IMG/VR virus record: IMGVR_UViG_3300037264_001662
Span: 1-23,368 of that record
DNA length: 23,368 bases
Strand: one strand, 5' to 3'
From: a virus
Shown: piece by piece, positions 1,035-14,493 of the stretch
Position numbering within the stretch: position 1 is the stretch's first letter
Layout: every line of letters starts with the position of its first letter
Program-made: the position numbers and the translations under genes
The notes under the pieces: model-generated
Seen by the model: only the letters and a program-made list of their open reading frames with translations
Told to the model about the DNA's origin: nothing
The model's database searches: none

Positions 1035-3233
1035 ATGACAATGACACAACAGAGCGCTAAAAAGTTCACACAAGGTCAGCTAAATCAGATAGATGATATT
1101 GAGCCGATGGGTGACCACCTAGCCGGGGCTATTAAGTCTTATTGTCAGTCTATTAACAACAATAGACAGAGCTATAAATGGGTGCAAGCGGTTCAGTGGA
1201 TCGAAAATATCCTATTTGGGCTAGGCAGACAGTACATCGATGACTTGTTAATATCCCGCATAGCGCGAGATTCGGACGGCAGCCTATCAGTAAATCGCGA
1301 GCGCGCGAATCGCGTGCCCAAGCCGGTCAACGATTTCATCGGCCGCTACGTAGAGACTAACATCTCTCTACTAACAGAGAACCGCCCTCAGCCTCGCATC
1401 ACTTCCAAGAGCGACGCGTGGGACGATAAACGAAAAGCCGAGTTATCCCAACTAGTTATCGAGTATCTATGGGAGGAACTCGGCCTTCCGGAGAAGCACC
1501 GCGAGATCGCGCGCATCCTCATGTATTGCGGCCTCTGCTTCCTTGAGACCTCGTTTGATCCAACAGAACCACGCCACTTAGCCGTTCAGCAGACCAAGAA
1601 CGAAGGGCAGATGTCCATTCCTGGCCCAGACGGCAAGCCTATCGACCTACCTATTGACCGCAAAGTAGGCGTCATTGACGAACGTGGGGCTCCTGTTTTT
1701 GAAGCAAAGGTGGAATATGGTGACATTACTTGTCGTGTCGTTTCTCCTTTCGAACTTCATTTCCCGCAAGTTCACTGGTGGGAGGACGTTGATTGGGTCA
1801 TTAAGGAAACTTACGTCCCGGTTAGTACTCTTAAAGACCGCTATCTTGTCCCGGATCTCAAAAGTATTCTAACCAAGAAGAATGGTTGGGACCTCTCGGC
1901 CCTAGACAACTGTGCCACCGAAAATGTGCAGAGTCTACCGTTGTGGTGGTGGGAGCGCATGACTAACGTAGTTGAAGGCCCCGGACCTAGCATCTACGTA
2001 GGCACGCCTGAGATGTGGGACGACTATGTTGTTGTGCGCACAATAGACCGAAAGCCGAATCCGAAGTGGCCCAAAGGCCGAACGGTCATTATTGTAGGCG
2101 ATAAGGTTCTCTATGACTCCCCGAAGTTAAACGGCGCGCGCGCCTATGACCCTCGTTGGCCCCATAGATGGCACCCGTACACACGTTTCCGTTGGGAAGC
2201 TCAGATTGGCTCAATCCTAGGACGCTCGCTAGTAGCGAAACTTCTTCCTAAGATCAAACGCATTAACGCAATCGACACCACTCTTATCATGTGGCGACGT
2301 ACTGTTCCTATTGCTACCTGGATCATGCCTAAGGGCACGAGTCCTATCGAAGATCAGCATTCCGGTCGGCCAGGTGCATACGTTGAATATGATCCGCGTA
2401 AGACCAACGGCCAAGCACCGACCCCTGTGCATCCGCCTGCCTTCCCGGAAGCCGCACTCATCGAGCGGGATACGTGTAAGCAGGAAATGGAAGCCATCGC
2501 GGGCACAGAAGACGTTCTCCGAGGACAGCGCCCAACCGGCGTTAACTCGGCAGCAATGTTGGACGTTCTACGAAAGCAGGCCCTTAGCTCTCGTTCCGCC
2601 ATTCTCCAGGCATGGGATGAGTCGTTGCAGCACGTTGGCACCAGCATACTTCAAGAGGTTATCAAGCACGTCAAGGCTGACTCTCGCTACGAAGAGCGTC
2701 TAAAGATCCTCTCCCGAGAGAAGGCAAGCCGCTTTACGATCAGAAGCTTCTCTGGCGCAGACCTGTCTGATAACGTCATAGTTCGCGTAGACACAGCCAG
2801 CATGGCTATGGTCAGCAAGGAAGCCAAGCAGGCTCGCGCAATCGAGATTCTACAGTACGGCCCAGGGCTTGTGAACATGCCGATAACGTTGCAGAAGAAG
2901 CTAATGGAAGAGCTTGGATTCCCAGACTCTATGAGTCCGAAGAGCCCAGACATCCAGCGCGCACAGATTCTCTTGAGCTTCATTAAGAGCAATAACTTCG
3001 AGTTGGCTATCCCGTTCCCAGAGGATGATCCGTATGTAATCCACGAGTTCTTGGTTGAGGACATGAAGGCTGAGGCGTTCATGGACTATCCGCAAGAACA
3101 GCAGGCTAAACTGGCTGAGCTAATGGATTACTACAAGACGGAGATCGTCCGAATCGAGCAGGCGCAACTGAAAATGCAATTTGAATTGGCTTCTGCAACT
3201 AACGAAGTTCAGAACGGACAACCCCCTAAATAA
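1035..3233 (+). CDS. Phage portal protein
   Basis: The product is 732 aa, close to the size of large podovirus portals such as P22 gp1. Portals form the dodecameric ring at the capsid vertex through which DNA enters and leaves. The N-terminal part has the helical region typical of large portals. Residues about 88-122 contain RANRVPKPVNDFIGRYVETN followed by LLTENRPQPRI. Around residues 488-520 a GTEDVLRGQRPTGVNSAAM segment precedes long helices, as in the portal stem and wing regions. The C-terminus is a Gln/Glu/Lys-rich helix, the expected barrel or crown part. The start at 1035 follows the previous stop by three bases. An in-frame ATG at 1041 is an alternative. Position upstream of the scaffold-like and capsid genes agrees. 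Fold-level certainty would need profile comparison. Confidence 0.88.
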   Translation: MTMTQQSAKKFTQGQLNQIDDIEPMGDHLAGAIKSYCQSINNNRQSYKWVQAVQWIENILFGLGRQYIDDLLISRIARDSDGSLSVNRERANRVPKPVNDFIGRYVETNISLLTENRPQPRITSKSDAWDDKRKAELSQLVIEYLWEELGLPEKHREIARILMYCGLCFLETSFDPTEPRHLAVQQTKNEGQMSIPGPDGKPIDLPIDRKVGVIDERGAPVFEAKVEYGDITCRVVSPFELHFPQVHWWEDVDWVIKETYVPVSTLKDRYLVPDLKSILTKKNGWDLSALDNCATENVQSLPLWWWERMTNVVEGPGPSIYVGTPEMWDDYVVVRTIDRKPNPKWPKGRTVIIVGDKVLYDSPKLNGARAYDPRWPHRWHPYTRFRWEAQIGSILGRSLVAKLLPKIKRINAIDTTLIMWRRTVPIATWIMPKGTSPIEDQHSGRPGAYVEYDPRKTNGQAPTPVHPPAFPEAALIERDTCKQEMEAIAGTEDVLRGQRPTGVNSAAMLDVLRKQALSSRSAILQAWDESLQHVGTSILQEVIKHVKADSRYEERLKILSREKASRFTIRSFSGADLSDNVIVRVDTASMAMVSKEAKQARAIEILQYGPGLVNMPITLQKKLMEELGFPDSMSPKSPDIQRAQILLSFIKSNNFELAIPFPEDDPYVIHEFLVEDMKAEAFMDYPQEQQAKLAELMDYYKTEIVRIEQAQLKMQFELASATNEVQNGQPPK

Positions 3234-3247
3234 TAAGGAATAAGATT

Positions 3248-3493
3248 ATGAGCGAAATGGATGACATGCGAGCAATGAATAAGAAACCAATTGCTGCCGC
3301 TAACTCAAATAAGACACTTTCGGGTGGTGCAGGAGAACCTTCGGCAGCCGATAAGGCACGGGCGAAAAATGCACAAAAATTATCCGATCGAGCCACGTCA
3401 ATGAGAGCAAAGGCTAAAGCACAGCAAGATGCGCAATATGCAGCTTGGGAAGCGGCGCGCGCAGCGCGACTCCGGGCATCGCGACGCAAGTAA
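3248..3493 (+). CDS. Small Ala/Lys/Arg-rich basic protein, unknown
   Basis: The product is 81 aa. ATG follows the Shine-Dalgarno-like AAGGAATAA with normal spacing, just after the portal stop. It consists mostly of Ala, Lys, Arg, Ser and Gln with almost no aromatic residues. The C-terminal 35 residues (QQDAQYAAWEAARAARLRAS and onwards) should form a very basic helix. No family is recognised. The TAA overlaps the ATG of the next gene. This is the first of the basic small proteins lying between portal and scaffold. DNA binding or packaging inside the head is a guess from charge. Confidence 0.65.
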   Translation: MSEMDDMRAMNKKPIAAANSNKTLSGGAGEPSAADKARAKNAQKLSDRATSMRAKAKAQQDAQYAAWEAARAARLRASRRK

Positions 3494-3681
3494 TGGGTGG
3501 CTTAAAACAGAAAATAGTAGACAAGACCAAGGTTGCACAGGCCGTTAAAGAAAAAGAAGCCGCGTTCAAAGCAACATACGGGCGTGAACCTATGACCGAT
3601 TCAGAAATAGATCAAGTCTACGGCGCTGGTGCTGCAACTCGCGCTATGGATGAGTTCTACGAAAAGATGGGAAAGAAATAA
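3493..3681 (+). CDS. Small basic protein with helical YGREPMTDSEID motif, unknown
   Basis: The product is 62 aa if it starts at the ATG that overlaps the preceding stop (TAATG). An in-frame TTG at 3445 would add 16 residues inside the upstream gene and has no clear ribosome site, so the ATG is preferred. The N-terminus is Lys-rich (GGLKQKIVDKTKVAQAVKEK) and is followed by FKATYGREPMTDSEIDQVYG, which looks like a small folded helix-turn segment. The C-terminus is again basic (YEKMGKK). The family is not recognised. The next ATG follows its stop directly. Confidence 0.65.
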   Translation: MGGLKQKIVDKTKVAQAVKEKEAAFKATYGREPMTDSEIDQVYGAGAATRAMDEFYEKMGKK

Positions 3682-3918
3682 ATGGGTGCTCTCAAGACAG
3701 CAGCGGGTAAAAAGAAAGGCAATCTAGCGCAGAAGGTCAAGGCTCGGCCTACCGATATGGCGCTCCGCCACCCCACACTAGACGGACCCGATGAGAGGGT
3801 TCGTGCAGAGCAGCCGTATATTCCGCCTCGCCCAGATAAGCGATTCGAGTTCCTAAAAACGTTCGCCACCATTCCAGGGCTCCGCTCTAAGGGTGCGCCA
3901 GGCGGAACAGGCCAGTAA
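3682..3918 (+). CDS. Small basic protein, unknown
   Basis: The product is 78 aa. ATG lies immediately after the TAA of the previous gene. The N-terminal third is Lys-rich (GALKTAAGKKKGNLAQKVKA). The middle has Pro/Arg motifs (YIPPRPDKRFEFLKTFATIP), and the tail is Gly/Pro-rich. Low aromatic content and high charge suggest disorder. No family is recognised. It belongs to the run of tightly coupled basic-protein genes after the portal. Confidence 0.6.
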   Translation: MGALKTAAGKKKGNLAQKVKARPTDMALRHPTLDGPDERVRAEQPYIPPRPDKRFEFLKTFATIPGLRSKGAPGGTGQ

Positions 3919-4821
3919 TTGAAAAAGCGCACTCCCGATCCGATGATTACCGCCTTGAAGGCGCAATCAACGCACCGCCCTATACCTATTCGGCGCTACG
4001 TCTATGAGCAGTTGGCTCTTTCTAAGCCCGGTTTCTGGGCCGACTGGAAAAAGCGTACCGTAGACGAGTCCGAGGAAGAACCATTTCAGGAACTCGCCGC
4101 GCCACCTGAAATGAACCGGCCTTCTAAAGAGCACCGCCTCGGGCCGTTCAAAGGCGACCCAGACGCTAAGAAGGAAAAGTTCAAGAATGATGAATACGCT
4201 TCACCGGTAACGCAAGAGCCCACAAAGAAGCCTCCGCCTACCAAGGGCTGGATTGCCATGGGCAACCAGGCGGCTGAATTCTGGTTAAAACAGAACCCAT
4301 TGATGGATAGTGGTAGCTCTACTATCCTTGAGTCTCTTGAGAAACATAGGCGCGCACAGGACTTATATAGATTCCAGCAGTACAGGATCTCACGAGGCAT
4401 AAAGGAACATGAATCCCAGACAATGGCTCAATTCATTATATTGAGACAACGCGAGCGCGATGCGGCCCGAGCGAAGAGACCATTCGGCTACGGGGAGCCT
4501 ACCAACTTTGATAAGATGGTGGATCTGCTGCACAAGCCAAAGCCTCCCTATACCCCTCCTACATTCGAGGTATTAAAACAGGGTACAACCCAATGGGTAC
4601 AGCAAGTCCCTAACTGGACTGTTGGCAATTTAAACGTCGCCCAGAACGGCTACGCATCTAACCCGACCGCGCCTAAAAATCAGGCCAAGGCCGCCCTTGC
4701 AGGCCGGATGAACGGCCCGACAAATGTAATGGCTCGCCAGAAGCTCAATCTAGGTCGCACCACCCCTAGCGACGCATCAGTAAGAAATGGCACTGCCAGC
4801 AAGTCCAAACTTAACTACTAG
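3919..4821 (+). CDS. Basic Pro/Lys/Gln-rich protein, unknown
   Basis: The product is 300 aa from a TTG that directly abuts the previous stop (TAATTG). An ATG at 3942 is the alternative start and would remove seven residues. Residues 1-45 hold RRYVYEQLALSKPGFWADWK, a possible folded motif. About 55-115 is Pro/Lys/Glu-rich linker. About 115-185 is helical with many Arg and Gln (ILRQRERDAARAKRPFGYGE). The last 70 residues are Asn/Ala/Gly-rich and basic (AKAALAGRMNGPTNVMARQK). I see no enzymatic motif. It ends the first coupled set after the portal, and a hairpin and promoter-like element follow. An internal virion role is plausible by position only. Confidence 0.7.
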   Translation: MKKRTPDPMITALKAQSTHRPIPIRRYVYEQLALSKPGFWADWKKRTVDESEEEPFQELAAPPEMNRPSKEHRLGPFKGDPDAKKEKFKNDEYASPVTQEPTKKPPPTKGWIAMGNQAAEFWLKQNPLMDSGSSTILESLEKHRRAQDLYRFQQYRISRGIKEHESQTMAQFIILRQRERDAARAKRPFGYGEPTNFDKMVDLLHKPKPPYTPPTFEVLKQGTTQWVQQVPNWTVGNLNVAQNGYASNPTAPKNQAKAALAGRMNGPTNVMARQKLNLGRTTPSDASVRNGTASKSKLNY

Positions 4822-4839
4822 TAAAATCTCACGATTTTA
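4822..4839 (+). other. Short AT-rich inverted repeat
   Basis: TAAAATC and GATTTTA form a perfect 7-bp stem around a 4-base loop (TCAC), between the stop of the upstream gene and the promoter-like element at 4840. It is A/T-rich and lacks a T-run after a GC stem, so it is a poor terminator. An operator or a weak pause site is possible. Confidence 0.35.
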
Positions 4840-4855
4840 GCTAAACTATAAATAG
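4840..4855 (+). promoter_or_regulatory. Promoter-like element GCTAAACTATAAATAG
   Basis: This AT-rich element contains TATAAA/TATAAATA and shares the GCTA(t/a)ACTAT core with the elements at 280-289 and 8857-8866. It lies 10-25 bases before a start codon that has its own ribosome site (AGAGG 4854-4858). No convincing -35 box is visible. A transcript starting here would have a very short leader, so the assignment is tentative. Confidence 0.35.
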
Positions 4856-4864
4856 AGGCTATCA

Positions 4865-6058
4865 ATGGCAAAACCCAAGAAATGGAATAAAATGTCGGCC
4901 GCCGAACAGGCGACCGAGAATGAAGCTCGCGCAGCAGCTAAGGCGACCCGTATGGCCGCAGAGAAGGCCGCTCTCGCCGCTGAGTCTGAAAAGGTCGCCG
5001 GCCCCGCTGAAAATGGCAGAGGTAAGGGGAGCCTTCGGCAGCGAGCAGGTACCAGGGTAGAAACTCCGGCCATAACTACCCTTCGGCAGCGACCAGGTAC
5101 CAAGGTAGAAACTCCGGCCATAACTACCCTTCGGCAGCGACCAGGTACCAGGGTAGAAACTCCGGCAGTCAAAGCTCCGGCAGTCGCCGCCCCTTCGACT
5201 GAAATTAGCTTACCCCACCGCACACCGCCGAATCAGGGCTCTATGGTCGGCAAGCCCGCCATAAGTCCTGTCATAGAGGTTCCGCCAGGTACTTTCAAGC
5301 CTGGAGCTGTAGCTAAATGGAATGAAATGTCGGCCGCCGGTAGACCAATCGTACCTCAAACAGGCTCCGTAGCTGACTCCATGCGCGCCTCCATGCAAGC
5401 GGGACGTGGTGCTGCATCTTGGAGAGTAGATGACGAAGTTAAGGCCGCCTATGAATCTTCTCTAAAAATGGGTCGCCGAGCTATGCAATCCACAGGGCAG
5501 AAAGTTGCCAGTACAGCAACCAAGGTTGCCAAGTGGTCCGGCACCGCGATGGGTAAGGGCTTCCTAGCAGTTGGCAAGTCAGCCATTGAACCTATAATCA
5601 ACCCAATTAGAAGCTTCAGAGCAGGCGCTGCTGCCCGACGAGCATCATGGGAAGCCGCAGGGCCGGTAGGCAAAGCGGCTCAGACTGTAGCAACTACGGC
5701 TAAGGTCGGGTGGGCCGGCGTAAAGACAGCAGGCGGTATTGCTAGAGGCATAGGCTACGGCATCGCAGCAGATATGGGCCACGACTTCGCCGGTCATTAT
5801 GGTGAAGTAAAAGCCGACAGAGAAATTGAAGCCGAGTACCGAGCCGAGTACGGCAGAAAACACGGCCTAAAGGTTACTACGGCCCCTCCTAGTTTGCTAC
5901 GTATGGTTACAGGCGGTTCTCCTAAGATCAAGGTTGAAGAGGTTGATAAGTCTCTTCGTGCCAAGAAGCTAGCACAGGGTCAAGCAAAGCACAACGAACT
6001 CACCTACAACGCTCTCAAGAAAGTAGCCAGTAGGAACGTAATTAGAGGTGGCAGCTAA
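4865..6058 (+). CDS. Ala/Lys/Arg-rich repeat-containing protein, possible internal virion protein
   Basis: The product is 397 aa. ATG lies six bases after AGAGG. The N-terminal 55 residues form an Ala/Glu/Lys helix. Residues about 57-101 are nearly three copies of a 16-residue unit (LRQRPGTRVETPAITT). A motif KWN(K/E)MSAA occurs at the N-terminus and again near residue 153. About 195-330 is Gly/Ala-rich and amphipathic (WSGTAMGKGFLAVGKSAIEP; GGIARGIGYGIAADMGHDFA), which could associate with membrane. The C-terminus is basic. I recognise no family. Charge, low complexity and location in a structural module make an encapsidated or ejected protein possible, but this is inference. Confidence 0.7.
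   Translation: MAKPKKWNKMSAAEQATENEARAAAKATRMAAEKAALAAESEKVAGPAENGRGKGSLRQRAGTRVETPAITTLRQRPGTKVETPAITTLRQRPGTRVETPAVKAPAVAAPSTEISLPHRTPPNQGSMVGKPAISPVIEVPPGTFKPGAVAKWNEMSAAGRPIVPQTGSVADSMRASMQAGRGAASWRVDDEVKAAYESSLKMGRRAMQSTGQKVASTATKVAKWSGTAMGKGFLAVGKSAIEPIINPIRSFRAGAAARRASWEAAGPVGKAAQTVATTAKVGWAGVKTAGGIARGIGYGIAADMGHDFAGHYGEVKADREIEAEYRAEYGRKHGLKVTTAPPSLLRMVTGGSPKIKVEEVDKSLRAKKLAQGQAKHNELTYNALKKVASRNVIRGGS
4880..4904 (+). repeat. Dispersed 25-bp direct repeat, copy 1
   Basis: The stretch encoding KWNKMSAA recurs at 5315-5339 with a single base difference (A to G, giving KWNEMSAA). The near-identity at DNA level over 25 bp implies a recent copy within this gene. Confidence 0.75.
5033..5168 (+). 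repeat. 48-bp in-frame tandem repeat (2.8 copies)
   Basis: Units begin at 5033, 5081 and 5129, each with CTTCGGCAGCG. They differ at only a few positions (GAGCA versus GACCA; CAGGG versus CAAGG). Each encodes a 16-residue unit LRQR(A/P)GT(R/K)VETPAITT. The third unit is truncated after VETPA and runs into further Ala-Pro-Val repeats. Near-identity suggests recent slippage or unequal recombination. Confidence 0.9.
5315..5339 (+). repeat. Dispersed 25-bp direct repeat, copy 2
   Basis: Second copy of the repeat at 4880-4904, encoding KWNEMSAA. One mismatch is seen in 25 bp. It lies after the tandem repeat and a Pro-rich linker, so the gene may have grown by internal duplication of its 5' end. 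Confidence 0.75.
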
Positions 6059-6062
6059 CGTA

Positions 6063-6218
6063 ATGTCTATCGAAGGTGTTCGATATCGCGTTAAGAGCAT
6101 GCCAAACGGTCAAAGGGTCCGCTTGGCCTTTGATAATGAGACAAACAAAGTGGTAGAAGCAACAGCTTTAGCACCAAAGAAGCTTCGCTTTAAAGCTAGG
6201 CAGAAAAGGAAACGATAG
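6063..6218 (+). CDS. 51-residue basic protein, unknown
   Basis: An ATG four bases after the previous stop opens a 51-codon frame that ends exactly in a TAGTG overlap with the next gene, strong evidence that it is real. The N-terminus (GVRYRVKSMPNGQRVRLAF) looks like a beta-hairpin. The C-terminus is very basic (KKLRFKARQKRKR), like a nucleic-acid-binding tail. A possible ribosome site is GAGGTGG about a dozen bases upstream. The family is not recognised. Confidence 0.65.
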   Translation: MSIEGVRYRVKSMPNGQRVRLAFDNETNKVVEATALAPKKLRFKARQKRKR

Positions 6219-6421
6219 TGGCAAACGCACCGCAACATGGTAGACCCGTAGACAAGTCAATGGGTCGCAAAGTAAACACATCAAGAAACGTGTCCGGCGT
6301 AGCTTCAGGGCAGGCTCCGACCAAGATGCCTACTAGAGAATCGCTCCCGAGACTTGGTATCCCACGCGGAGAAATGCCGGACCTTAAGAAAAAAGCCAAG
6401 TTTAAATATCAGGTAGAATAG
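6218..6421 (+). CDS. Small basic Gly/Pro/Arg-rich protein, unknown
   Basis: The product is 67 aa from GTG, which shares its first base with the upstream TAG. The composition is Gly, Arg, Lys, Pro, Ser and Asn with no predicted secondary structure in the first 50 residues (QHGRPVDKSMGRKVNTSRNV). The end is Lys-rich (PDLKKKAKFKYQVE). It is probably disordered. The family is not recognised. It is the third gene of the coupled run 4865-8707. Confidence 0.6.
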   Translation: MANAPQHGRPVDKSMGRKVNTSRNVSGVASGQAPTKMPTRESLPRLGIPRGEMPDLKKKAKFKYQVE

Positions 6422-6428
6422 GTATAAA

Positions 6429-6584
6429 GTGAAAGATGCAAGTGACCTTAGGTACAAGGCTAAGAGCCGACGGCGGGATCGGCGACAGTCGGATCGCGAC
6501 AGCAAGAACTACGGAAAAGATCGCCCTAAAGATAAACAACCTTATGATCGCAACGCTTTTAAAAAAGGTACAGAGGATAAGTAA
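6429..6584 (+). CDS. 51-residue Arg/Lys/Asp-rich protein, unknown
   Basis: The frame runs from GTG at 6429 to TAA at 6582-6584 and overlaps the next ATG (TAATG). Of 51 residues, 19 are Lys or Arg and 10 are acidic, including AKSRRRDRRQSDRDSKNYGK. This charge-dense, RD-repeat-like composition suggests a disordered RNA- or DNA-binding peptide. The exact fit between neighbouring genes and the conserved overlap pattern support it as a gene. A weak AGG-poor leader means translation probably depends on coupling. Confidence 0.6.
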   Translation: MKDASDLRYKAKSRRRDRRQSDRDSKNYGKDRPKDKQPYDRNAFKKGTEDK

Positions 6585-6913
6585 TGGCTGATACACTGAA
6601 AACACTAATGGAACGACGAATGGCCGAATTAGAGGCTGCTTCTAATGGCGACGTAATAGGTGTTCGACCAAACACCCGAACGCCCGCACCAACTGCACCG
6701 CCAGCACCTGCTACACCTAGACCTCCGGTAAAACTGCGGCCTCCCTCTGAATTAGAAGCAGAGATTCAAAGAGAAACTGAAGAGCGTCGAAAGAAACAAC
6801 TGTTTCGTACTGACCCGCCTGTCGCCCGGCTTCCCCGGGTAGGTGGCGCGGCATCTCTTAAAGAGAAAAAAAAGGCTAGGAAGACCGATAGCTTCTCAGA
6901 CCAAGACTACTAA
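6584..6913 (+). CDS. Proline-rich basic protein, unknown
   Basis: The product is 109 aa. ATG overlaps the previous stop. The N-terminal 20 residues are a helix (ADTLKTLMERRMAELEAASN). About 28-58 is a Pro/Ala/Thr linker (RTPAPTAPPAPATPRPPVKL). The rest is a charged helix (ELEAEIQRETEERRKKQLFR) followed by a basic disordered end. A run of seven A (6866-6872) lies in frame as Lys codons. Reading on in either shifted frame soon meets stops, so no frameshift product is proposed. The family is not recognised. Confidence 0.65.
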   Translation: MADTLKTLMERRMAELEAASNGDVIGVRPNTRTPAPTAPPAPATPRPPVKLRPPSELEAEIQRETEERRKKQLFRTDPPVARLPRVGGAASLKEKKKARKTDSFSDQDY

Positions 6914-6915
6914 CA

Positions 6916-8037
6916 ATGTCTACGCTCAAAGAATTGCGGGATGCCGTTAAATCTTGGGCAATGCAGGAAAAACAAGACATAGACTCAGGGAAAAAGAAAA
7001 CCCCGGTATCTAGTTTGGAGAAATTTATGGCAGACACAAAGAAGACGGACCTTCATCCAGACGTGCAAGCAACGCTAGCGGCTATTAAAGCTGCGAAGAA
7101 AGCCGATATTGATAATCTAGCGCCTTCCAAGTATTTGAGGCCCAATCCTCCGGCAGCAGCACAAAGCCGAATGGATGCCAACAAACCAGTAAAGACTGCA
7201 CTAGTTCGAGAAGTCGAACCAGGACGTAGTAGATTGGCTGAAGCTGCGAAACGTCGAGAACGTTATCCTAATGGGGTTCGTGTTATGAGCCCGGGACTCA
7301 CTAAAGCGGAGTCTGAAGGCGCGCTTCCCCCACACCCAGATTCACCCCGGACGATCGGCAGTCGCGGAGGATGGGATAGAGACGCTCTTAAAGAGGCGCG
7401 CATGCAATCAGCAGCCGAGACGGGAGAGGCGCGACAATTCGTTGGTGTAATGAAAGGCGAAACAGTTCCAGGTGCCCACAAAGCTCAGGGTGCGAGGATG
7501 CAGGCTATAGTTGATAGTATACGAGAAGGGCGCAGCGAATCCGTGCGCGAAGCGCGAAGAGCCGCAATTCAAGAGAAGAAATTAAATTCGCTGACGCAAG
7601 CACCGGCCCACCCGAACAAACCCACGCCAGGACAAAAGGCAGGAGGGCAGCGCTTTACACCTAGGCTGACAGGCCCGCCGCCCGGAACACCCGGCTCTGA
7701 GTTCACAGCCCAGACTAAGAGCGACATAGATCGGCCCCACAAAGACCTCGGTAAGATCGCTGTTAACCTCATTCGTAATGCCGGAGAACCAGGCTCTAGC
7801 GTAGATGAAGCAGGTGGACGGATTCTAAGACAGGCGTTAGCCCAGAGGCTAGGTTATAACGCTGGTCCGCCCGCCCGCTTCTCAGTCGCCGGGGCCATGA
7901 GCGGTAAATTGGGCATCTACGGAGCTATTAAAGGCGCGCTCGAAGGTTCCAAGACTTTGCGTAAACTCAAGACAGGAGCCTATGACTTAACGCCTACTGG
8001 GGAGCCAGTCCTTAAGAAAGGATTGATTGAATCATAA
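6916..8037 (+). CDS. Basic, largely disordered protein with a C-terminal module shared with the next gene
   Basis: The product is 373 aa, starting at ATG two bases after the previous stop. It is rich in Ala, Lys, Arg, Pro and Gly with few aromatics. Short helical segments (STLKELRDAVKSWAMQEKQD at the start) alternate with Pro-rich linkers (about 240-270). The last 44 residues, GKLGIYGAIKGALEG to KKGLIES, are nearly identical to the end of the following protein because of a 144-bp DNA duplication. I recognise no family. The shared end may be a virion-targeting or partner-binding tag, an idea drawn only from its reuse. Confidence 0.7.
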   Translation: MSTLKELRDAVKSWAMQEKQDIDSGKKKTPVSSLEKFMADTKKTDLHPDVQATLAAIKAAKKADIDNLAPSKYLRPNPPAAAQSRMDANKPVKTALVREVEPGRSRLAEAAKRRERYPNGVRVMSPGLTKAESEGALPPHPDSPRTIGSRGGWDRDALKEARMQSAAETGEARQFVGVMKGETVPGAHKAQGARMQAIVDSIREGRSESVREARRAAIQEKKLNSLTQAPAHPNKPTPGQKAGGQRFTPRLTGPPPGTPGSEFTAQTKSDIDRPHKDLGKIAVNLIRNAGEPGSSVDEAGGRILRQALAQRLGYNAGPPARFSVAGAMSGKLGIYGAIKGALEGSKTLRKLKTGAYDLTPTGEPVLKKGLIES

Positions 8038-8046
8038 TGGATGAAA
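7903..8046 (+). repeat. 144-bp tandem duplication, copy 1
   Basis: This copy matches 8271-8414 at an offset of 368 bases with two mismatches (C/G in ATCTAC versus ATGTAC; T/G in GGTTCC versus GGTGCC). Both mismatches change the protein (Ile/Met, Ser/Ala). The repeat covers a gene's last 44 codons, its stop, and the first ten bases (ATGGATGAAA) of the next gene. Confidence 0.95.
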
Positions 8047-8405
8047 CAAAATGGACGTTACGGCACGAACCAGATGTTGTGGTTGTCGGTTCTAGAGAGG
8101 AAATGAAGGGCGGACGACCTCATGTTCTTGCTAAATTTGAAAAACCAACCGAGGGTCGATTCGGGAATACGTGGATACCCAAAGACCAACTCAAAGAAGT
8201 AGTGGGCGTACTAAAAAAGATGGAAAGTAAGGCTAGTAGTTCGGCAAGTAAAGCAGGAAAGAACCTAAGAGGTAAATTGGGCATGTACGGAGCTATTAAA
8301 GGCGCGCTCGAAGGTGCCAAGACTTTGCGTAAACTCAAGACAGGAGCCTATGACTTAACGCCTACTGGGGAGCCAGTCCTTAAGAAAGGATTGATTGAAT
8401 CATAA
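8037..8405 (+). CDS. Small protein: unknown N-terminal domain plus shared C-terminal module
   Basis: The product is 122 aa. ATG overlaps the previous stop (TAATG). Residues 1-60 look like a small folded alpha/beta domain (PHVLAKFEKPTEGRFGNTWI then PKDQLKEVVGVLKKM), unlike anything in the upstream protein. Residues 62-77 are a Ser/Ala/Lys linker. Residues 79-122 are the module shared with the 6916-8037 product. This is therefore a different N-terminal domain joined to a copied tail. Its first codons (MDE) are also shared with the next gene through the same duplication. Function unknown. Confidence 0.7.
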   Translation: MDETKWTLRHEPDVVVVGSREEMKGGRPHVLAKFEKPTEGRFGNTWIPKDQLKEVVGVLKKMESKASSSASKAGKNLRGKLGMYGAIKGALEGAKTLRKLKTGAYDLTPTGEPVLKKGLIES

Positions 8406-8414
8406 TGGATGAAA
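8271..8414 (+). repeat. 144-bp tandem duplication, copy 2
   Basis: Second copy of 7903-8046, with two mismatches in 144 bp. It again spans the end of one gene, the TAATG junction and the first codons of the next. The 224 bases between the copies hold only the unique part of the 8037-8405 gene. Confidence 0.95.
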
Positions 8415-8707
8415 TAACAGAACCAGACGAACAACCACTTCCCGGCCCTCGCGGTCAGCGGATGATGCAGCTTGGCATCCTTACAAAGGCCCAAAAGCGA
8501 AAGCCGGTCATTCCTGACGTTCGCACGAACGCCGAAGGCAAGCCCAATCCTGGAGATGTCGAGAAAGCTAAGTATGCTCAGACGCTAGCCGAGAAAGTGC
8601 GCGAGCAGAAGATGGCCGCGTTACAGCAAGGGCCGACCCAGACCGTTAACGAAACCAACCCGATGACCAAGAGTTATTCGGCTCGGCCGCCAAAGCCCGC
8701 CAGATAA
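8405..8707 (+). CDS. Small charged protein, unknown
   Basis: The product is 100 aa. ATG overlaps the previous stop and lies inside the duplicated segment. It begins with an acidic Pro-rich stretch (DEITEPDEQPLPGPRGQRMM). A helix around residues 50-75 (DVEKAKYAQTLAEKVREQKM) follows, then a basic disordered end (SYSARPPKPAR). No family is recognised. It is the last gene of the block and is followed by an intrinsic terminator. Confidence 0.65.
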   Translation: MDEITEPDEQPLPGPRGQRMMQLGILTKAQKRKPVIPDVRTNAEGKPNPGDVEKAKYAQTLAEKVREQKMAALQQGPTQTVNETNPMTKSYSARPPKPAR

Positions 8708-8772: not shown

Positions 8773-8814
8773 GCCTCGCTATAACAGTTCTCCCCTGTTG
8801 TAGCGAGGCTTTTT
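8773..8814 (+). terminator. Strong Rho-independent terminator
   Basis: GCCTCGCTATAACA pairs with TGTTGTAGCGAGGC, giving about 14-15 pairs with one G-T wobble and a 7-8 base C-rich loop. TTTTT follows directly. It closes the basic-protein block and separates it from the scaffold and capsid genes. Confidence 0.93.
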
Positions 8815-8972: not shown

Positions 8973-9896
8973 ATGGGCGCAAAGATAGAGGATATCACGG
9001 CAAAGCTGGAAGCAGCGGCAGCCGGAGATAAGGTAACGGAAACGCCAACCGAAACCGAAACAGAACAAGTCGTAGCAACGGACGACAAGACTGAAACAGG
9101 TACTAAAAAGTCAGGGGCGCAGGATAGAATCCAAGAGCTAGTTGCCGCACGAAAAGACGCGGAACGAAGATTCGAGGAACTATCAGCCAAGTATACCGAG
9201 AAAGAGTCGGAAGTTGGCAAGCTCATTGATCTAGTTAAAGACCGCGAGCAAGATGCTAGGGTCGTAGCGAAAATCAACGAACTGCACACAGACCCGAAGT
9301 TCCGAGACATTGTAGAAACGCTAGATAAGGCAATCCGTGGCATTGAAGTAGAAGTAAAGGCAACGGCCAAAGGCGCAGATGCTGCCCCGCAACCGAACGT
9401 CGATCTTCTAAAAAATGTCCAAGCTGACATTGAGCAAGCCCGCGCAGAGGCGGCAGCACAGGCAGCGGATCAGAAGTCAGACTTGCTTCTAATGAAGTCA
9501 GACCTCGTGCTAGAGAAGCTTTTCGAGAATCTACCGGACGACGAGTACACTGAGGAAGATCGAAAGATCCTTAATTCTGCACTAGCAGATATGATCGATT
9601 GGGACTCTATTGAGACAACGCCAGCCAGACTGGAAGGCGAAGTAGCAAAAGGTTTCCAAAAGGCAGTGGATTGGTACGGTAATCCTAAAGGTCGAATCGC
9701 TGCGGAAGCTACAGGTACAACAAAAGAAGCTACAGGTGCCAAGTCTAAGGCCACTGTGGATCTATCAAAGCTCGATCTAGGCAAGCTGGAAAATGTCAGC
9801 GTAGGCGGCAAAGACGTTCAACGTCCGGCCATCACCGACGACGACTTCTCCGCACTACTAGCCGAGGAATTGAGACGATCTCGCGGCGGCCGTTAA
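8973..9896 (+). CDS. Scaffolding-like head assembly protein
   Basis: The product is 307 aa. ATG lies six bases after AGGAG. It directly precedes the major capsid gene, the usual place for a phage scaffold. The protein is acidic, Ala/Glu/Lys/Asp-rich and highly helical. Residues about 15-45 are a Thr/Glu-rich disordered stretch. About 50-95 is a coiled coil (KDAERRFEELSAKYTEKESE). About 140-180 is a second helix. The C-terminal end is basic (EELRRSRGGR), as scaffold ends that bind capsid often are. No protease motif is evident. Scaffolds guide procapsid assembly and are then lost. The call rests on position and composition, so a minor head protein remains possible. Confidence 0.7.
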   Translation: MGAKIEDITAKLEAAAAGDKVTETPTETETEQVVATDDKTETGTKKSGAQDRIQELVAARKDAERRFEELSAKYTEKESEVGKLIDLVKDREQDARVVAKINELHTDPKFRDIVETLDKAIRGIEVEVKATAKGADAAPQPNVDLLKNVQADIEQARAEAAAQAADQKSDLLLMKSDLVLEKLFENLPDDEYTEEDRKILNSALADMIDWDSIETTPARLEGEVAKGFQKAVDWYGNPKGRIAAEATGTTKEATGAKSKATVDLSKLDLGKLENVSVGGKDVQRPAITDDDFSALLAEELRRSRGGR

Positions 9897-9933: not shown

Positions 9934-11145
9934 ATGCAGACATTCGCAACACTAGGCGATATGCTCCTACGGCGTTACGTCGTTGACTTCATCGGTCAGA
10001 TGCAGCAACTCAGTACGCCGATTTATTCGATGCTTAAAGAGGATAGCCGCTTTACTCCATCGGGTGACGGTGCATACTTCGCAGTACGTCTCGACGGTAA
10101 CGAGTCGGGTGGCGGTTGGCGCGGTACAGACGACAACTCCCTCCCATCAGCAGGTAACGAGCGCATCAAGTCGCACCGCGTTCGGCCCAAGAAGTACTAC
10201 CATGTAGTAAGCTTCTCGGGTCTAGCCGAGGCTGTTTCACGGCGCGGCGGCGAAGAGGCTTTCGCAAGCGCAATTACAGACGCAATTTCTGCGGCTGTTA
10301 AGCGTGCAGGCGCGAACTTCGAGGTCACGTTCCTTCGCGGTGACGGCACAGGCCGCCTAACCAACGTAAACGGCACAGTCACAGCCACTACTTCGGTAAC
10401 GGTTGACGACGCGCGCCCGTTCCGCGTTGGCCAGGTAGTCGTGTTCCTCAACAACACAACCGGCCTAAAGCAGGCAGGTCCAGTTAGCGTTACAGCACGC
10501 AGCGTATCCGGTGGAACAATCACCGTATCCTCAGCGGTAACCCTGGCGGATGACGACGGTATTTACATCTCGGGCGAGCAGTCAGAGGCCGCAGCTCCAA
10601 CAGAAGTAACCGCACTCGGTCTTCCGGCAATCATCAACAACTCGGGTACGATCTACAACCTTTCGCGGTCAACGTACCCAATCCTACAGTCGCAGGTAAT
10701 TGCAGCTTCGAGTGCGTCACTCGATGAAGCACTACTACGACGCCTACGCAAGCGGCTCCTAACAGAGACCGACACTGGTTCGATGGACGGCTTCGCCTTC
10801 ATCAGCAACTACGACCAGTTCGATCGCTACACAGAGATCGCCCTTCCATTCCGCCGGTTTAACGACATGCGGTTGGAGCTAGGTGCGCAGCAAGAGCTAA
10901 CGACCTTCGAGGGTCGGCCTTGGTATATTTCATGGGCCGCAAAGCCAGATGAAGTATATATGATGCGCATGGATGCCATCGTTCGCGGCGTGGTTCGCCC
11001 ACTAAGCATCGATGAGCGCGTAAACATGGCGTGGCAGCCAGGCCAGGATGCTTTCACAGTACTCATGAAGTACTACGGTGAGAACATCGCACGGCTTGTC
11101 AACCAGACAGCGAAGATCACGGGGCTTTCAGTACCAACGTACTAA
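9934..11145 (+). CDS. Major capsid protein, HK97 fold
   Basis: The product is 403 aa. ATG follows a weak AAAGG site. The N-terminal region has a helical arm and an E-loop-like segment (residues 45-85). Helices near 90-130 (AITDAISAAVKRAGANFEVT) match the spine helix region. LRGDGTGRLTNVNG at about 134-146 leads into a beta-rich insertion (about 147-217, with FRVGQVVVFLN and TVSSAVTLADDDGIYISGEQ) of the kind common in capsid proteins. The C-terminal half (ETDTGSMDGFAFISNYDQFD; FEGRPWYISWAAKPDEVYMM) fits the A-domain. No N-terminal cleaved domain is apparent, which fits a separate scaffold. The strong terminator just after it suits a highly expressed gene. Confidence 0.9.
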   Translation: MQTFATLGDMLLRRYVVDFIGQMQQLSTPIYSMLKEDSRFTPSGDGAYFAVRLDGNESGGGWRGTDDNSLPSAGNERIKSHRVRPKKYYHVVSFSGLAEAVSRRGGEEAFASAITDAISAAVKRAGANFEVTFLRGDGTGRLTNVNGTVTATTSVTVDDARPFRVGQVVVFLNNTTGLKQAGPVSVTARSVSGGTITVSSAVTLADDDGIYISGEQSEAAAPTEVTALGLPAIINNSGTIYNLSRSTYPILQSQVIAASSASLDEALLRRLRKRLLTETDTGSMDGFAFISNYDQFDRYTEIALPFRRFNDMRLELGAQQELTTFEGRPWYISWAAKPDEVYMMRMDAIVRGVVRPLSIDERVNMAWQPGQDAFTVLMKYYGENIARLVNQTAKITGLSVPTY

Positions 11146-11990: not shown

Positions 11991-12266
11991 ATGGCAGCAA
12001 GTATAGTCACAGATAGCGAGATCGAAACACCTTTTAACGATAACGCCTATTGCTTTTCTCGCTTCAACTACGCAGTCAGCGGCGATACTGTTCTAGTACC
12101 ACGCGGCTGTCTGTCGGCAGCAGTGCTAGTAGCAACTGGAACGGCACCAACAGTTACAGTTGCGGCAGGCGCAAACAACGATTCCGTTACAGTTACGGGC
12201 GGTACCTTAGGCAATGGTCTAATTCTCGTCACACGTCACGGCGGCAACCCCGCTTCAGCAAGATAA
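11991..12266 (+). CDS. Small beta-sandwich-like protein, tandem paralogue 1
   Basis: The product is 91 aa. ATG lies eight bases after AGGAG. After a short variable N-terminus it shows alternating beta strands (FSRFNYAVSGDTVLVPRGCL; GTAPTVTVAAGANNDSVTVT) with Gly/Thr turns and ends in LILVTRHGG. About 30 of 64 aligned residues match the next protein, so the two are paralogues. The hydrophobic and Thr-rich strand pattern suggests a small Ig- or jelly-roll-like virion protein, possibly capsid decoration. The location just after the capsid and decoration genes agrees. No specific family is named. Confidence 0.65.
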   Translation: MAASIVTDSEIETPFNDNAYCFSRFNYAVSGDTVLVPRGCLSAAVLVATGTAPTVTVAAGANNDSVTVTGGTLGNGLILVTRHGGNPASAR

Positions 12267-12276
12267 GGAATAACAC

Positions 12277-12540
12277 ATGCCAGCAGTAGCAGTTCAGACA
12301 CAAGATGAGCTATGGATTCAAGGCGCGAAGTGGAGCTTTTCAAAGTTCCAGTACAACGCCTCAGCCGAAACGGTAACAGTACCATACGGCGCGATCCAGG
12401 CAACAGCATTCGTTGACAGCGGAACAGCGCCGACAGCGGCAATCACGGCGGGCGCGGATACAGATTCCGTGGCTCTAACAAGCGGCACGGTGAATAAGCT
12501 CGTAACGCTAGTTTGTAAACACTCAGGCAGCGCAGCCTAA
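12277..12540 (+). CDS. Small beta-sandwich-like protein, tandem paralogue 2
   Basis: The product is 87 aa. AAGGAATAA precedes the ATG. It aligns with the previous protein from FSKFQYNASAETVTVPYGAI through GTAPTAAITAGADTDSVALT to LVTLVCKHSG, about 47 percent identity by eye. The N-termini differ (AVAVQTQDELWIQGAKW here). Strand periodicity is clear. Likely a virion surface or head protein by context, unproven. The arrangement looks like tandem gene duplication followed by divergence. Confidence 0.65.
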   Translation: MPAVAVQTQDELWIQGAKWSFSKFQYNASAETVTVPYGAIQATAFVDSGTAPTAAITAGADTDSVALTSGTVNKLVTLVCKHSGSAA

Positions 12541-12552
12541 AAGGAATAAACA

Positions 12553-12834
12553 ATGGCATTACTAGTACCAGTTTTTCAACATTTTCATGATCTTCCAGGC
12601 GGCGGAATTCTTGGCGTTACGAAGGTAAAGCTTCTGTCAACAAGTGACACCCTCACAGTTCCCCTTCCTTCCCACCAGACGGCGACGGCTTCTGTAGGCC
12701 GCGTGCTACAAGGCAGCGCAGCGGCATGTTCCGTTACGCAGTCGGCACAGACAGTAACTCTAGTCGGCACAGCCGGTAACGAAGTTATTGTTTGCACTGT
12801 CCACAACCGCACAAATAGCAATCCAGAAGCCTAA
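12553..12834 (+). CDS. Small beta-rich protein, probable distant paralogue 3
   Basis: The product is 93 aa. AAAAGGAATAA precedes the ATG. Length and strand layout match the two preceding proteins: VTKVKLLSTSDTLTVPLPS corresponds to their first strands (DTVLVP, ETVTVP). The next region shares their Ala/Thr/Val-rich character, and the end (QTVTLVGTAGNEVIVCTVHN) matches their last strands. Sequence identity is otherwise low, so paralogy is probable but not certain. Its N-terminus (MALLVPVFQHFHDLPGGGIL) is longer and unlike theirs. Function unknown. Confidence 0.6.
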   Translation: MALLVPVFQHFHDLPGGGILGVTKVKLLSTSDTLTVPLPSHQTATASVGRVLQGSAAACSVTQSAQTVTLVGTAGNEVIVCTVHNRTNSNPEA

Positions 12835-13132: not shown

Positions 13133-13813
13133 TTGAAAAGCCATTTGCCGAAAGATTATCGACCCAAGGGTGTTAACCATAAGATCCTTGTGCCGGGTCT
13201 TCATCTACCAGCAGATTTTATTGATTCCATAAAAGGAATTGACCAAAATCTTCATTTTGTTTTCCACCACTACCGCGTGCAGTATGATGATCTCATGAAC
13301 TGCTATTACGGTAGCCTGGAAGACCCCCGCTGGATGATCCATGCAGAGCATGGAACTGAAGTCTGGGGTTGGATTATGACGATGCCAGACGGCTCTCCTA
13401 TTCCTGATATGACTTGGCATCTGTGGCAATTGAAACAAGATTGGGGTTGGTCACATGTGGCTAATATACCTGATTCATCTGAAAATAGTCTCAACACAAT
13501 TGTAAACAGACTAGGCAAAGAAAAACTCTTCAAAGCTAAGTTCGGCGCACTCGCTTGGAACTACCATTTGCGAGCTGAAAAAGAAGATCGTGACGCACGC
13601 GAAATGGACGCTAAAGATGCGCGATTTCAGGACATTCAACGAGAAAATAGCAGCCTGACCCGAAAAGCCATGGAGAACCTGGCGATGGGTATTACCAAAC
13701 CTACCAACCCAACTACAGACGTAATAGCCAGTTACAAAGGTCAGACTAATTTCACTAAGATAACAAGACCCATTACTGATAAGGAAGGTGGGCTCGTAAC
13801 TGGAGAAGACTAA
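13133..13813 (+). CDS. Tryptophan-rich phage protein of unknown function
   Basis: The product is 226 aa from TTG with a strong GGGGGAG site four bases upstream. No ATG fits as well; the first in-frame ATG lies near residue 55. Residues about 1-130 look folded and hold eight Trp (DPRWMIHAEHGTEVWGWIMT; MTWHLWQLKQDWGWSHVANI). About 135-185 is a charged helix (HLRAEKEDRDAREMDAKDAR) and the tail is disordered. I do not recognise it. It lies between the small head proteins and the adaptor, with a TAATG overlap to the adaptor, so a head-closure or connector role is possible. The evidence for that is position only. Confidence 0.6.
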   Translation: MKSHLPKDYRPKGVNHKILVPGLHLPADFIDSIKGIDQNLHFVFHHYRVQYDDLMNCYYGSLEDPRWMIHAEHGTEVWGWIMTMPDGSPIPDMTWHLWQLKQDWGWSHVANIPDSSENSLNTIVNRLGKEKLFKAKFGALAWNYHLRAEKEDRDAREMDAKDARFQDIQRENSSLTRKAMENLAMGITKPTNPTTDVIASYKGQTNFTKITRPITDKEGGLVTGED

Positions 13814-14493
13814 TGGCGAACACGTTATCGACCTTTCGCACGCAAATTAGACGGTACCTCAAGGAAACAAACGCGACTACGTCCTACTGGGACGCCAACT
13901 TCGTAGACCAGCTTTTCAATGCTCAGTACCGCAAGCGCTGCACCCAGTTAATAATGGCATTCGAGGGTTGGTTTGTTAACGTTTCCGTAAGGAATGTTAC
14001 AGCCGACACCGCACGATACGCCTTCCCTGATGGCTTCCTACGCCTTCAGAAAATAGAGATGGTCCGCACTGACGGAACTACCGTGCCTATCCATCGGCAC
14101 GAGCGACACGATGAAGCCAACCCAGCAGATAGCAGCAGCAGCGGTGACTCCTACCTCCCTTTCTATCGTTTACAAGGCAACGGCTTCGTCTTAGAGCCTA
14201 CCCCAACGGAAACAGTCACTGACGGCTTGCAGCTCGAATGGGCCGGAGTACCAGCCCTACTATCAGCCGCTGGCGACGCGTGCCACCCAAGCTTCCCCGA
14301 AATATTCGAGGAACTCCTTGTCATTGACACAGTTGTTAACGCCTTCGACGCCGAAGGTGTCCAGGAATCCGGACTCGTGCGAAGCTTGCTTCGTCAGCGA
14401 GCAGAGATGGAAGAGAACTTCGAGCGGTTCATTGAGATGCGAACCGTCGCCAGGCAGGAAATTCAGCCGTTCATCGTGTACGAAGACGCCTGA
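13813..14493 (+). CDS. Head-tail adaptor (connector) protein
   Basis: The product is 226 aa. ATG overlaps the previous stop. The pattern fits podovirus adaptors such as T7 gp11 or P22 gp4 functionally: N-terminal helices (TFRTQIRRYLKETNATTSYW; NAQYRKRCTQLIMAFEGW), then RYAFPDGFLRLQKIEMV and strand pairs around GNGFVLEPTPTETVTDGLQL, and helices at the C-terminus (LVIDTVVNAFDAEGVQESGL; a long Arg/Glu helix). Such proteins form a ring below the portal and dock the nozzle. The nozzle gene following it directly supports the call. The family was judged by pattern, not by search. Confidence 0.65.
   Translation: MANTLSTFRTQIRRYLKETNATTSYWDANFVDQLFNAQYRKRCTQLIMAFEGWFVNVSVRNVTADTARYAFPDGFLRLQKIEMVRTDGTTVPIHRHERHDEANPADSSSSGDSYLPFYRLQGNGFVLEPTPTETVTDGLQLEWAGVPALLSAAGDACHPSFPEIFEELLVIDTVVNAFDAEGVQESGLVRSLLRQRAEMEENFERFIEMRTVARQEIQPFIVYEDA

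Follow-up and report, generated by a model that had tools for sequence, protein, structure and literature searches.

The internal proteins of phage T4 are diverse, and enter the scaffold core by way of a common targeting segment (PMC3012670; PMC9026906), with the propeptides of IPII and IPIII being identical (PMC9026906; PMC3012670). A similar arrangement is found in the window, a 23.4-kb virus record with tailed-phage head and tail genes, and in six further lineages, where, as with the T4 capsid targeting sequence (CTS) on IPI, IPII, IPIII and Alt, the only part common to different and mostly basic proteins is a short terminal segment (PMC9026906; PMC3012670). The body of the T4 internal proteins furthermore varies between phages, as it does here (PMC9026906; PMC3012670). 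The T4 CTS is, however, N-terminal, 10-20 residues in length and cut off by the protease gp21, whereas the segment in the window is C-terminal and comprises 44 residues, with no protease recognised in the window and no cleavage evident. By analogy, the window tail would work like the T4 CTS if it is packaged, but it does not appear to be a member of the CTS family, since its position differs and cleavage is not seen. In the giant phages phiKZ and SPN3US, inner head proteins carry long propeptides and occur as paralogues in varying number, and the first 15 residues of SPN3US gp53 and gp54 are identical (PMC5694885). Unlike the window tail, these propeptides are N-terminal and cleaved, and belong to giant myoviruses (PMC5694885); no relation in sequence to the window was found.

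Head gene region of the window

The head module of the window resembles that of P22, with a P22-like portal (Pfam) and an acidic putative scaffold encoded directly before the capsid gene, but differs in harboring a dozen or so small basic genes between portal and scaffold. P22 is not known to have such a block. The portal gene (1035..3233, + strand; Pfam P22_portal, phrog_156) forms the upstream border of this interval, in which the block of small genes extends over 3248-8707. Three adjoining genes on the + strand are of particular relevance here, namely those encoding a large basic protein (6916..8037; 373 aa, pI 10.1), the body of which is homologous to L002 14160-15536 and L004 1578-3329, a small basic protein (8037..8405; 122 aa, pI 9.8), for which no relative was found of the N-terminal 78 residues and the C-terminal 44 of which constitute the shared tail, and a basic protein of 100 aa (8405..8707), conserved in L002, L004 and L034, the gene for which is the downstream border of a variable slot. 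A terminator-like hairpin with a T run (8773..8809, + strand), identified as a consensus match only, would end the portal-to-8707 transcription unit ahead of the scaffold gene. The putative scaffold gene (8973..9896, + strand; 307 aa, pI 4.7) was assigned by its position before the capsid gene and its acidity, with no family match, and is followed by the major capsid protein gene (9934..11145, + strand; phrog_14242) and an SU10-type adaptor gene (13813-14493). No Rfam families or tRNAs were found in the window, and no family match to a prohead protease was obtained among the window proteins scanned, the record being a fragment of a larger genome.

The 339 proteins encoded in portal-scaffold intervals have a median pI of 9.99, with 66% above 9.5, while median values of 4.5 and 5.39 were obtained for 36 scaffolds and for 431 proteins encoded after the capsid gene, respectively. 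In the window, likewise, the tail carriers are basic and the putative scaffold is acidic. Basic interval proteins beside an acidic scaffold represent the setting expected for proteins that would gather around the scaffold; packaging itself is not implied.

Several other features can be observed in the interval and its surroundings. The gene for a 397-aa interval protein contains a 48-base unit present three times at 5032-5175, as well as a separate 25-base repeat (4880-4904 and 5315-5339, 435 bases apart; KWN.MSAA), which are more signs of frequent duplication in the interval. A protein of approximately 125 aa, beginning like ILFLDDDPNRAAIAY, shows near full-length conservation in 24 portal-scaffold-interval loci (e.g. 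L003 4198-4572, L029 6364-6759 and L049 3095-3478) and is possibly receiver-like, which would make it a strange neighbour for head genes. In the putative scaffold genes of all relatives (e.g. window 8973-9896), the C-terminal part is kept and the first 40-90 residues are strongly variable between phages, so that a variable front and conserved back hold for the scaffold too.

A repeated gene end

A repeat search of the window identified a direct repeat pair (7900-8049 and 8268-8417) with a spacing of 368 bases. Base-by-base comparison of 7903..8046 (copy 1) and 8271..8414 (copy 2), both on the + strand, revealed mismatches at 7917 and 7948 only (2/144 bases), both of which are amino-acid changing (ATC>ATG, I>M; TCC>GCC, S>A; pS: 0/32.7; pN: 2/99.3). 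Each copy comprises the final 44 codons of one gene, the stop-start overlap TAATG and the opening bases of the following gene, with copy 1 joining the 373-aa gene to the 122-aa gene and copy 2 joining the latter to the 100-aa gene. The 224 unique bases between them (8047..8270, + strand) encode the orphan part of the 122-aa protein. The original prediction had described two 144-base copies at this offset, their two amino-acid-changing differences, and the gene end, TAATG junction and next gene start in each, all of which proved accurate; it had also called the duplication tandem, which is incorrect, as the unique bases lie between the copies and these are not head to tail. The repeat is a closely spaced direct repeat and not a tandem array.

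The 373-aa (6916-8037) and adjoining 122-aa (8037-8405) proteins thus have a common C-terminus of 44 residues. As predicted, two proteins with different N-termini share a tail, but it is identical at 42/44 positions rather than throughout, and ends ...PVLKKGLIES. A 144-base match cannot arise by chance, and copying of a gene end, including the tail codons, the stop-start overlap and the start of the next gene, has left two neighbouring, otherwise unrelated basic proteins with a common C-terminus. Two differences, without a close relative, are too few for selection on either tail copy to be judged, as had been anticipated for the two sites.

Relatives and turnover of the slot

A search with the capsid protein returned matches in 46 viral contigs as well as a single contig from a Deltaproteobacteria metagenome-assembled genome, with no match among named phages, and the phage family has no isolate in the collection searched. 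As several of the matching contigs are 119-121 kb in size, the window probably represents about one fifth of a genome. In the closest relatives, L002 and L004, the large gene is present with 47% and 42% identity over aligned columns, respectively. Both the tail and the 122-aa gene are, however, absent from these two relatives and from L034. Searches with the tail and the 122-aa and 373-aa proteins against phages, plasmids, viral contigs and genome contigs yielded nothing apart from the large-gene homologues in L002 and L004. The slot between the large and 100-aa genes holds one 57-aa gene in L002 and two genes with a common N-terminus in L004. Since the nearest relatives fill it with other small genes, the slot turns over quickly, and the copying event in the window looks recent on the scale of these relatives.

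The two adjacent L004 genes (3341-3535 and 3535-3747) represent the converse case: their N-termini agree (MSEMDEMRS.NKKPIAEA.STKTLSGGA) and their C-termini differ. The 31 shared residues are 90% identical at the protein level, with a dS of 2.03 and dN of 0.06, the synonymous sites being nearly saturated. An N-terminus of this type is found once each in the window (3248-3493) and L002 (13452-13712).

Shared C-termini in other lineages

An all-against-all comparison identified six lineages, besides the window, with within-phage pairs of proteins that have a common C-terminal stretch and differ over the rest of their length. The pairs occur in L040 (635 and 112 aa, ending MSPEERGT and KSPEERGT; E: 1e-4; dS/dN: 2.0/0.71), L049 (696 and 108 aa, sharing near the C-terminus; E: 1e-10; dS/dN: 1.59/0.43), L024 (189 and 220 aa, plus a 723-aa protein more weakly; E: 3e-11; dS/dN: 1.96/0.37), L018 (156 and 128 aa; E: 3e-33; dS/dN: 0.79/0.14 over 72 residues), L048 (188 and 178 aa; E: 1e-8; dS/dN: 0.50/0.12) and L029 (191 and 171 aa, sharing near the C-terminus; E: 4e-7; dS/dN: 0.87/0.72, near neutral). 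The start of the small gene lies within the stop codon of its larger neighbour in L040 and L049, as it does in the window. The shared sequences differ from phage to phage. In several relatives, different proteins encoded by one phage have a common C-terminus that is specific to that phage.

Values of dS exceed those of dN in the shared ends of L018, L048, L024 and L049, and less so in L040, in ratios that are biased because the segments were picked by protein similarity. Despite this bias, the excess is strong for the L018 C-terminus and the N-terminal case of L004. The N-termini of the L018 proteins may be distantly alike, so that this pair might represent a whole-gene duplication with a fast-changing front. 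N-termini are also shared, in L004 and L034 only. With the scaffold left out of the counts, homology restricted to the C-terminus is found in 13/49 interval families and homology restricted to the N-terminus in 5/49, compared to 2/19 and 7/19, respectively, of those encoded after the capsid gene (Fisher p = 0.037). When protein ends were compared within and between phages, interval C-ends were enriched (odds ratio 1.9-3.1; p 0.009-0.03 at score thresholds of 30-40), a weak effect that is confounded by unrecognised orthologues; under the same confounding, no enrichment was obtained for N-ends or for proteins encoded after the capsid gene.

A shared C-terminal domain in L006 was set apart as a different case, being decoration-like and also existing alone; in this phage a 610-aa protein likewise carries the decoration-like domain as a fusion. 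After the capsid gene, most relatives encode arrays of small proteins, possibly decoration proteins, with two to three full-length paralogues in each (window 11991-12834; L017, L028, L036-L048). Three related genes of L029 (563-1024, 1379-1798 and 4014-4427; 137-153 aa), together with a fragment (14194-14358), are located between and after the head genes, and their products would seem by eye to resemble HNH homing endonucleases.

Properties and origin of the tail

The window tail is basic (pI 9.7) and matches no domain in Pfam, PHROGs, PADLOC or PDB sequences. Structure models were of low confidence for both tail-carrying proteins (pLDDT 55 and 46), and in both models a helix is predicted over the first part of the tail. 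Gly-rich hydrophobic segments adjoining basic helices are observed in several of the shared tails. A universal tail profile across lineages was rejected for the window, which scored 3.2 bits in a leave-one-out comparison against up to 12.3 in shuffled sequences. By the same procedure, one L024 tail was clearly recovered by the profile of the other tails (15.8 bits against 11.6) and the L040 tail weakly (10.7 bits, below its shuffles).

The GC content is 0.47 in the tail, 0.46 in the orphan part of the 122-aa gene and 0.60 at the end of the large gene's body, and the start beside copy 2 reads MDE, where the relatives of the 100-aa gene begin MDD, so that it looks native to this gene. Copy 2 is suggested as the source by the closer GC content of the tail to the orphan part and by this native-looking start, while the opposite direction of copying is suggested by a weak resemblance between the tail and the end of the large gene in L002, a marginal likeness (p 0.005-0.024). 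The third-position GC of the tail gave no significant result; the GC content of the orphan part is lower than that of the 100-aa gene (p 0.009).

The original prediction had portrayed the tail as a conserved, amphipathic and reusable tag for head packaging or for binding a common partner. Conservation was not borne out, the tail being missing from the closest relatives and from all collections that were searched, and its amphipathicity is not significant against shuffled sequences (p = 0.07). Relatives with a single copy, and with no tail on any other protein, had been named as half of what would mark a chance recent duplication; the nearest relatives carry no copy at all, which corresponds to that half. 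The idea of a reusable tag itself gains support from the position between portal and scaffold, the basic neighbourhood beside an acidic scaffold and the recurring shared C-termini of the relatives, mostly with dS > dN.

Possible roles of the shared tail

By analogy, and from the recurrence of shared C-termini, we suggest that the tail may be a C-terminal recruitment module for head-internal proteins, an explanation that we consider plausible and somewhat short of probable. Basic proteins bearing the tail would bind a common partner in head assembly, most probably the acidic scaffold (or the portal). They would end up inside the prohead and might be ejected along with the DNA. Any protein gaining a partner-binding tail would become a head protein, such that a tail joined to a new N-terminal part would yield a new internal protein in one step, and a copied gene end with its stop-start overlap would likewise add an operon member in one step. 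The proposed matching of tag and partner within each phage would account for tails that agree within but not between phages. Recruitment is supported by the repeat and its frames, the position between portal and capsid, the basic pI, the recurring sharing, the excess of dS over dN, the family counts and the T4 precedent. Points against it are that homology between the window tail and the others could not be detected, that the nearest relatives are without it, the amphipathicity result, the near-neutral L029 pair and the sharing of N-termini too. Nearly equal in likelihood is that the tail is a recombinational by-product, whereby a single event, illegitimate or homologous, would have introduced a foreign frame along with a copy of the adjoining gene end, leaving the tail as a passenger that itself has no role. 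The interval would often gain and lose small genes, and the repeat would now permit clean loss of the 122-aa gene. The different small genes occupying the slot in L002, L004 and the window, the repeat boundaries, which ignore gene borders and extend into the next gene, the lower GC content of the orphan part and the failure to find the tail elsewhere in the searches are all consistent with such an event. However, the older shared C-termini of other lineages keep their protein similarity despite synonymous divergence, and a pure by-product does not predict the recurring arrangement of overlapping large and small genes.

The basic pI of the tail, the helix modelled over its first part and the Gly-rich segments beside basic helices would also fit an ordinary functional domain, such as a basic DNA- or membrane-contacting helix that confers the same activity, other than targeting, on both proteins. 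The lack of a match in the domain and structure collections argues against this, and the agreement of tails within but not between phages is left unexplained, making such a domain unlikely. Retention of the duplicated unit for translation, with the gene end, an AAGGA motif and the stop-start overlap allowing inserted frames to be translated by coupling, is considerably more improbable: TAATG or comparable overlaps are usual in the operon and the overlap is intact in both copies, but the AAGGA is placed approximately 14 bases upstream of the start, a distance too great for it to be strong, coupling needs only approximately 20 bases and not 144, and the other overlaps of the operon work without a repeat. 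That two strains were joined at a shared sequence during assembly might be suspected in a metagenomic contig, the exact arrangement of which was seen once only, but the chance of this is very slight given the two differences between the copies, their intact frames and overlaps, and the similar arrangements in independent contigs. Misassembly is furthermore unlikely because no more than approximately 98 bases of exact identity remain after the last difference, both junctions are in open frame and there is no simpler path between the same flanks.

Implications for the phage family

Were recruitment by the tail to apply more widely, this uncultured phage family would rely on C-terminal, uncleaved and phage-specific tags for loading its heads with basic proteins, the set of which changes. 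Gene-end copying would move the tags to new proteins, and in each phage they would evolve jointly with their cognate partner; we regard this broader proposal as doubtful at present. What is known of the recruitment of new cargo into phage heads comes mainly from T4-like and giant phages, where the signals are N-terminal and cleaved. If the tails are targeting tags, they would represent a second way of loading head proteins, with the evolutionary step, the copying of a gene end, caught recently, and would provide short peptides for testing the packaging of foreign proteins. Even if the tails are not tags, the shared ends mark likely head-associated proteins of this phage family.
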